Positions 7,194 through 7,738 of a stretch of DNA of 32,219 nt are shown one piece after another. A program made the translations under genes and the position numbers. Position 1 is the stretch's first letter. Every line of letters begins with the position of its first letter. The stretch spans positions 79,596-111,814 of the forward strand of contig JAQTNC010000003.1 of assembly GCA_028714475.1 (NCBI GenBank), in the 5' to 3' direction. The DNA comes from Patescibacteria group bacterium (GTDB taxonomy: Bacteria; Patescibacteriota; Patescibacteriia; SG8-24). The notes under the pieces are model-generated. The model did no database searches. It saw only the letters and a program-made list of their open reading frames with translations, and was not told the origin of the DNA.

Positions 7194-7225
7194 TTGAAAA
7201 AAGCTCACCAATAAAGCCATATATT

Positions 7226-7257
7226 TGGTGGGGTGGCCGGGGATTGCACTCGCCCGA
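7226..7257 (-). other. tRNA 3'-end-like relic
   Basis: On the minus strand the segment ends like a tRNA: CCACCCC (possible acceptor 3' strand), A, then CCA at 7228-7226. It is preceded by CCCCGG and a T-arm-like but unpaired GGGCGAGTGCAATC. No matching 5' acceptor GGGGTGG lies nearby and the T-stem does not pair, so this is not a working tRNA. Confidence 0.3.
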
Positions 7258-7296
7258 CGCGCGCAGAAAAAATTTCCAGTCGGCCGGGGCCTCCGC

Positions 7297-7321
7297 GGCC
7301 CGCTGTCGAATACAGCGGGCC
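7297..7321. repeat. Perfect 10-bp hairpin
   Basis: GGCCCGCTGT (7297-7306) pairs perfectly with 7312-7321 around the loop CGAAT. On the minus strand it lies inside a possible larger fold closed by CCAGT and ACTGG and followed by AAATTTTTT (7274-7266), so a terminator for read-through from tRNA-Lys is possible. Confidence 0.5.
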
Positions 7322-7350
7322 TTGTCCAGGGTCGCGCCGGACACTGGCCG

Positions 7351-7446
7351 CGCCACGTGAACACCGGCGTTCGTTTTGGGAAGGCCCCGTAAAATGAACT
7401 GCTTCGCAGTTCATCACGGGGCACCACGTAAAAACACCGGGCAAGC
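7351..7446. repeat. Nested-hairpin repeat, copy 1
   Basis: A 96-bp unit: flank CGCCACGTGAACACCGGCG, outer stem CCCCGT (7385-7390) with ACGGGG (7416-7421), inner stem TGAACTGC (7395-7402) with GCAGTTCA (7406-7413), then CACCACGTAAAAACACCGG and GCAAGC. The flanks nearly match copy 2, while the stems differ but stay paired. Confidence 0.8.
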
Positions 7447-7469
7447 TTAATCCGAAAAGACTTTGGCTG

Positions 7470-7564
7470 CGCCACGTGAACACCGGCGTTCGTCTAAGGA
7501 ATGTCCCGTAAAACGGCTCGCGCGGCGAGCCGCACGGGACACCACGTAAAAACACCGGGCAAGC
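7470..7564. repeat. Nested-hairpin repeat, copy 2
   Basis: A 95-bp unit, offset 119 bp from copy 1. Outer stem TCCCGT (7504-7509) with ACGGGA (7534-7539); AAAA; inner stem CGGCTCGC (7514-7521) with GCGAGCCG (7525-7532). Compared with copy 1, one outer C-G pair is now T-A and the inner stem sequence is largely replaced, yet all pairs are kept. Confidence 0.8.
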
Positions 7565-7582
7565 CGGTGTTTTTACGTGGTG
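7540..7582. repeat. 19-bp perfect inverted repeat including the tRNA-Lys CCA end
   Basis: CACCACGTAAAAACACCGG (7540-7558) is the exact reverse complement of 7564-7582, with loop GCAAG. The right arm contains the CCA, the discriminator and the last acceptor base of tRNA-Lys. In the primary transcript this hairpin would directly follow and overlap the tRNA 3' end. No T-run follows. Confidence 0.85.
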
Positions 7583-7653
7583 GGTCGGCCGGGGCTCGAA
7601 CCCGGGACCATCAGCTTAAAAGGCTGTTGCTCTACCAGCTGAGCTACCGACCC
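7578..7653 (-). tRNA. tRNA-Lys (anticodon UUU), CCA encoded
   Basis: The 76-nt minus-strand gene folds as a standard cloverleaf: acceptor GGGTCGG with CCGACCC, D-arm TAGCTCAGCTGGTAGAGCA, anticodon loop CTTTTAA (anticodon TTT), T-loop GGTTCGAGCC, discriminator A and encoded CCA (7580-7578). No strong promoter is seen just upstream; it may be read through from the small gene ending at 7787 or from a weak local promoter. Confidence 0.95.
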
Positions 7654-7660
7654 GAGCTTT

Positions 7661-7738
7661 GTTATTAGTTTTTGGTTATTGGTTGTTGGTTAGCTTGCTA
7701 ATCAACTAACAACAAACAACTAATAACCAATAACTAAT
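7661..7738. repeat. Heptamer-unit hairpin array
   Basis: The left arm divides into 7-nt units GTTATTA, GTTTTTG, GTTATTG, GTTGTTG (7661-7688). After a short middle, the right arm has AACTAAC, AACAAAC, AACTAAT, AACCAAT, AACTAAT (7704-7738). The arms are imperfect reverse complements. It lies between tRNA-Lys and the terminator-like hairpin of the next gene. Confidence 0.8.

Follow-up and report, generated by a model that had tools for sequence, protein, structure and literature searches.

The tyrT repeats of E. coli are repeats of ~178 bp within one operon, and an RNA, rtT (Rfam RF00391), has been proposed to arise from the trailer. The element described here resembles them in that repeats lie directly downstream of a tRNA gene and that, as in its type-2 companion, the tRNA 3' end is copied, but it occurs behind many tRNAs rather than in one operon, has a plan of three complementary strands (A/A'/A'') that the tyrT repeats lack, and gives no Rfam match. 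Integron attC sites are folded sites of variable sequence and conserved structure. Our units likewise combine variable sequence with a conserved fold; on inspection, however, they contain neither the GTTRRRY / RYYYAAC core nor cassette ORFs, and their ends read GTTCACGTGGC. REP/BIME sequences with RAYT are also many-copy bacterial intergenic hairpins, but the genome studied here has no Y1 transposase, and its element is tRNA-anchored with variable stems. Intrinsic terminators correspond to the first part of the unit, A:A', whose G+C hairpin and A- and T-tracts follow the tRNA immediately, but have neither the B/C hairpin nor the third strand A''. Additionally, mobile palindromes are found in organelles, including the GC clusters of yeast mitochondria (PMC4478555) and the palindromes of Volvox (PMC2670323). 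These, together with fungal double-hairpin elements, are short, non-coding, multiplying palindromes that vary in sequence, keep their pairing and have no known enzyme of their own, as here, but they are neither CCA-anchored in one orientation nor built on a bacterial terminator. The kind of element, small palindromic and tRNA-linked repeats, is known; the anatomy and anchoring of this one are not.

The window, a stretch of 32,219 nucleotides from a Patescibacteria group bacterium (genome G000), had been described in a sequence-only reading as carrying two nested-hairpin units with compensatory stem changes downstream of tRNA-Lys. Two copies with common flanks are indeed present, the flanks being directly repeated over 55 nt (85%) and 32 nt (97%); the outer stem replaces a C-G by a T-A pair with pairing retained (GCCCCGT/ACGGGGC vs GTCCCGT/ACGGGAC), and the inner stem differs and is perfect in both copies (TGAACTGC/GCAGTTCA vs CGGCTCGC/GCGAGCCG). 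The units do follow the tRNA 3' end, with the correction that the tRNA lies on the minus strand (7653-7578) and the units are read on that strand. The boundaries given for them (7351-7446 and 7470-7564) cut the units short, as the 19-bp terminator hairpin touching the tRNA-Lys CCA (7582-7540; inverted repeat I4) and the run to ..GCCA belong to them too.

The general plan of the element, which is ~115 bases long, consists of a perfect terminator hairpin A:A', a hairpin B/C, a third strand A'' complementary to A, and a ..GCCA end (Table 1). Specifically, unit 1 reads in the tRNA direction CCA, CGTAAAAACACCGG (A), CTTGC, CCGGTGTTTTTACGTGG (A'), the B/C hairpin with its outer stem TCCCGT/ACGGGA enclosing an inner palindrome, a linker, GCCGGTGTTCACGTGG (A'') and CGCAGCCA. 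In the predicted fold, the A:A' pairing reaches into the CACCA of the tRNA through TGGTG. The region folds better than every shuffle (z -3.6 for 225 nt), as does the entire minus-strand trailer with the tRNA (z -8.8). In the Rfam scan the tRNA alone scored above the gathering threshold, with no other family, rtT included. A 116-aa ORF across the units (7205-7555, minus strand) was rejected as a protein, because it crosses the repeats with no common frame logic. Immediately upstream of tRNA-Lys, at 7658-7738 of the window, lies an AT-rich inverted repeat of TTGGTTATTGGTTGTTGG-like units.

Table 1 Features of the tRNA-Lys locus, in window coordinates
Feature	Position	Strand	Basis
tRNA-Lys(TTT), CCA encoded; unit 1 begins at the adjoining base	7578..7653	(-)	ARAGORN; Rfam RF00005
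Unit 1, 114 nt, complete element	7464..7577	(-)	Sequence; covariance-model match, E 1.6e-28
Unit 1, strand A = CGTAAAAACACCGG	7564..7577	(-)	Inverted repeat and sequence
Unit 1, strand A' = CCGGTGTTTTTACG; perfect hairpin with A; G+C stem and T-tract, intrinsic-terminator form	7545..7558	(-)	Inverted repeat I4; fold
Unit 1, nested hairpin B/C, TCCCGTG..ACGGGA, inner palindrome CGGCTCGCCGCGCGAGCCG at 7514-7532	7504..7539	(-)	Sequence; covariation
Unit 1, strand A'' = GCCGGTGTTCACGTGG; complements A, alternative partner of A	7472..7487	(-)	A:A'' pairing tests
Unit 1, terminal mini-hairpin GTGGC-GCA-GCCA, CCA at its end	7464..7475	(-)	Sequence; other genomes with the same form
Unit 2, 119 nt, tandem copy	7345..7463	(-)	Sequence; covariance-model match, E 4.2e-18
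Unit 2, unrelated AT-rich sequence in place of strand A, without complementarity to A'	7446..7463	(-)	Sequence
Unit 2, strand A'	7424..7440	(-)	Sequence
Unit 2, nested hairpin B/C, inner palindrome ATGAACTGCGAAGCAGTTCAT (7394-7414) containing d(GCGAAGC)	7384..7422	(-)	Loop-motif count; sequence
Unit 2, strand A''	7353..7368	(-)	Sequence
Type-2 remnant core, GTCCGGCGCGACCCTGGACAAG-hairpin-CCGCGGA	7292..7342	(-)	Core recurs behind other tRNAs
End of the type-2 remnant, tRNA-Lys 3' end copied in part (GAGGCCCCGGCCGAC)	7279..7293	(-)	12-nt direct repeat D3, specific to tRNA-Lys

By DNA search, inspection of all 47 tRNA loci and a covariance model built from 20 units, we found 34 strong copies in the 1.4-Mb genome G000. 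The starting point of a copy is the CCA of a tRNA, a duplicated tRNA 3' end, or the ..GCCA that ends the unit before it. Copies adjoin the CCA of 19 tRNA genes, of which two appear to be split by group I introns. tRNA genes apparently interrupted by such introns and unreported by ARAGORN lie in the C4:5405 region (L025) and the C2:12255 region (L110). Across genomes, 70 of 97 units sit exactly at the CCA of an ARAGORN tRNA, 5 behind another unit and 22 behind a tRNA 3' end that is a copy or was undetected, even though CCA is the only tRNA sequence that the model contains. The orientation relative to the tRNA is the same throughout, the host tRNA may be of any amino-acid type, and A:A' hairpins are found alone too. 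The covariance-model search proposed earlier returned many further copies with their stems kept, and the tRNA link, holding for 97 of 97 units, is much stronger than had been noted.

The covariance model (E 1e-6) detected the element in at least 29 of 381 genomes of the class, a lower bound since nine candidates were scored per genome, and in 8 further genomes from other families of the phylum. On sequence inspection, 28 genomes from 9 families, in a group with genome sizes of 0.7-1.6 Mb, as would fit Patescibacteria, have the full plan behind a tRNA 3' end in a single orientation. The conserved parts CGTAAAA, CCNCGTG..TTTACGNGG and TTCACGTGGC..GCCA keep a fixed order in the 9 families, and the terminal mini-hairpin form of unit 1 recurs in other genomes. 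One carrier is a deep-mine MAG (L077), and L079 holds only a partial unit. L078, one of three genome-contig pattern matches, was discarded as a chance match with no tRNA there. Pattern scans of IMG/VR, with one pattern close to one that matches most units, gave no viral carrier, and a phage vehicle was rejected on this ground. In the part of the literature on tRNA-linked palindromes in CPR/Patescibacteria that was covered, we found no description of the element. The element is real, widespread and apparently undescribed.

Covariation is seen in all three pairings, A:A', the inner stem and A:A''. In the 20-unit alignment from G000, A:A' and B/C were paired in 92.5% of cells vs 79.3% after shuffling, with 90 vs 28 double changes, and the alternative A:A'' in 94.5% vs 86.7%, with 22 vs 8 double changes. 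The conservation of structure proposed from the two window copies was correct, and it is much stronger than they could reveal. When A'' was compared with A plus the loop in a fixed register across 93 units, the mean score was 7.89 vs 5.17 (sd 0.13) for shuffled units, reached in 0 of 2000 trials; loop bases left unpaired by A' match A'' in 43.6% of cases vs 26.7% (sd 1.8%) expected, for example in L165, L163, L133, L156 and L157. Because A'' matches, above chance, hairpin-1 loop bases that A' cannot pair, we rejected A'' as a mere copy of A' and regard it as an independent inverted repeat of A.

Both third-strand results speak for the main rival to a copied DNA repeat, namely a structured trailer RNA. 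Under read-through, A would pair either with A' (stop) or with A'' (alternative), and cuts at the CCA ends by tRNA-processing enzymes would yield a small RNA or control tRNA 3' maturation; CCA-to-CCA units form a natural processing unit for this. However, A:A' comes first and has intrinsic-terminator form, so that most transcripts should end ahead of B and A''; folded as RNA, A:A' of unit 1 is 12 kcal/mol more stable than A:A''; recombinant units with a mismatched A'' occur in genome G343; and presence differs among species and tRNAs without a rule. The G343 units L172, L175, L176 and L178 carry an A'' that fits the A of a different unit and have in common a perfect palindrome inserted in A''. 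B-type hairpins are also inserted into A'' between CACG and TGG, and recursive hairpins of the CCCTGTACC..GGTACGGGG type, three deep at one point, were observed in the Met unit (L023) and in L111 (1188-1350).

The level at which the stems are kept may differ along the unit. In all units the G+C hairpin A:A' runs into a T-tract (CACCGG-CTTGC-CCGGTG-TTTTT in unit 1), and, judged by this form, it probably serves as the RNA terminator of the tRNA; the remainder beyond it is more likely kept at the DNA level. G-U pairs number 3/479 in inner stems and 14/1235 in A:A', vs 22/540 in tRNA stems of the same genome. A count of G-U against A-C mismatches under a symmetric rule gave 14:3; over A:A' and C stems the ratio is 17:3. 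The d(GCGNAGC) loops number 23 on the sense and 0 on the antisense strand. None of these counts is an independent test, since the units are related by descent. The G-U excess and the loop asymmetry speak for folding of the tRNA-sense strand as a single strand. GCGNAGC forms an extraordinarily stable DNA mini-hairpin (PMC4686876); this stability, and the wholesale replacement of stems with almost no G-U, favour DNA palindromes. Taken together, the scarcity of G-U and the repeated occurrence of GCGNAGC loops suggest a process at the DNA level by which perfect palindromes are produced or retained. The 17:3 excess also argues for the trailer RNA, and the lack of a sense-strand G-U excess in A:A'' (8 G-U, 17 A-C) argues against it; on balance, we consider a trailer RNA unlikely.

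As a whole, the interpretation in the sequence-only reading is partly supported. Selection on structure is only partly safe, as perfect hypervariable stems with almost no G-U may reflect, besides selection, a DNA process that makes or repairs palindromes. An RNA processed from the tRNA transcript, its other proposal, might still exist, but only the first hairpin need be transcribed, and this looks like a terminator stopping before the part described. A DNA element that duplicates fits best, given near-identical units at different tRNAs, unit-exact blocks whose flanks are unrelated, and an orthologous locus that occurs with and without a unit (below).

The window contains a second tRNA-linked element, type 2, in the region 7198-7344, present as a remnant (7342-7279). 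In G000 the element also lies behind the tRNAs for Lys(ctt), Met, His, Glu, Arg(cct), Ser(gga), Cys and Val(gac) (L021, L023, L030, L052, L029, L058, L054, L024). Behind 8 of 45 tRNAs there is a 15-18-nt inverted copy of the T-arm and acceptor of the tRNA concerned, then a structured core (..CCCCGGACAAG-hairpin-CGCGGA) and, mostly, a copy of the tRNA 3' end in direct orientation together with a terminator. The arms fit the adjoining tRNA, and 0 of 44 control tRNAs match any of them as well. Type-2-like arrangements are also present in relatives, and a variant with the conserved loop motif GAGTGCCTAGTATGGCACTC occurs in different genomes (L079, 790-580; L009; L013). Type 2 reveals the sequences behind tRNA genes in this group as a hot spot of palindromes copied from a template.

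These tail-to-head T-arm copies favour a further rival, in which there is no element with an agenda. Bidirectional tRNA terminators would be reshaped by local mutation, through quasi-palindrome correction and template switching at highly transcribed tRNA genes, and homogenised by gene conversion. The rarity of G-U in hypervariable stems, the occurrence of solitary A:A' hairpins and the lack of a transposase or reverse transcriptase agree with such a process, as does an A' extension that pairs with the adjoining tRNA acceptor end at several loci (Lys TGGTG, Asp TGGCG, Leu(cag) of G002). It cannot, however, account for conserved parts in fixed order in 9 families without a spreading or selected element, and we regard it as unlikely.

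The units have spread within genomes. Unit b behind tRNA-Leu(caa) is 97% identical to the Arg(tcg) copy and 92% to the Thr(cgt) copy, with flanks and tRNAs at background (54-65%); a two-unit block is common to Leu(caa) and Arg(tcg) at 91%, with unrelated flanks; and unit 1 of Lys(ctt) is 95% identical to that of Asp, whose tRNAs are 65% identical. Blocks common to different tRNAs stop exactly at the CCA boundaries. Unit identity is 75% within a genome vs 69% between species of one genus, the nearest neighbour of a unit comes from the same genome in 56 of 82 cases, and in G343 units at several tRNAs have one derived hairpin insertion in common. Presence and absence alternate at one orthologous locus: behind tRNA-Arg(gcg) in one genus, G212 has a full unit, and 5 of 6 sister species have simple terminators directly after CCA, the contig of the sixth ending at the tRNA. 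The G212 unit takes the place of the simple terminator rather than preceding one. Strong units are patchy in that genus, with 15, 4, 3, 1 and several zeros per sister species. Mobile palindromes in general are marked by near-identical copies at non-homologous sites and by variable occupancy of an orthologous site; the units show both, the former at 91-97% identity where tRNAs and flanks do not rise above background. Of 94 non-tandem cases, 5 have a further terminator no more than 12 nt behind the unit, compared with 1 among 780 control windows, which looks like the displacement of an older terminator in the downstream direction. We found no clean empty site with a target duplication, and no sister genome has the exact pre-insertion sequence; CCA is present at both unit ends.

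The search for a mobilising enzyme was negative for the families tested. G000 has no match to Y1_Tnp (PF01797), hence no RAYT was found, and none to the reverse transcriptase RVT_1 (PF00078), which a retroelement or retron would carry; the IS110 DEDD transposase (PF01548) is absent from G000 and weak in 1 of 20 genomes. A special tyrosine recombinase as mover was likewise rejected, as G000 has a single one and relatives poor in the element have it as well. The gene of this recombinase (C6:65125-65670) lies immediately upstream of the element-carrying tRNA-Arg(tct) (L030). Since no tested dedicated enzyme family is present, host recombination or template switching is the leading guess for the spread.

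We favour, at somewhat less than an even chance, a family of non-coding palindromic repeats on tRNA 3' ends that is copied from tRNA to tRNA and tolerated as the tRNA terminator. A unit that begins right after CCA and ends in its own CCA could be placed behind a tRNA, a copied tRNA end or another unit. A:A' would act as the intrinsic terminator of the tRNA and thereby make the element harmless or useful in place, with the B/C hairpin and strand A'' lying beyond the stop signal and A and A'' forming the putative inverted ends. The perfect stems may be made or kept as folded single-stranded DNA with arm-to-arm copying, and the repeats would spread by unit-exact copying between tRNA loci within a genome, most likely by host recombination or template switching, as a selfish rather than useful sequence. 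Against this repeat-family reading, the spread could be ordinary gene conversion, and the 17:3 G-U excess suggests that the terminator, at least, is under selection as RNA. Doubtful in our view is the stronger claim of a new class of mobile element, which would use the universal tRNA CCA as landing site, bring its own stop, synchronise three complementary strands via single-stranded DNA folding, nest in itself and need no dedicated transposase.

In these small-genome bacteria, fast-changing structured repeats sit exactly at tRNA ends. Should the element be mobile, it would show how a parasite establishes itself in genes that are the most expressed and least expendable, namely by serving as their terminator; should it be an RNA, it would represent a new widespread class of trailer RNA. 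Either way, it offers a clear example in which stem covariation may come from the copying of DNA palindromes and not from selection on RNA, which bears on how structured RNAs are inferred.
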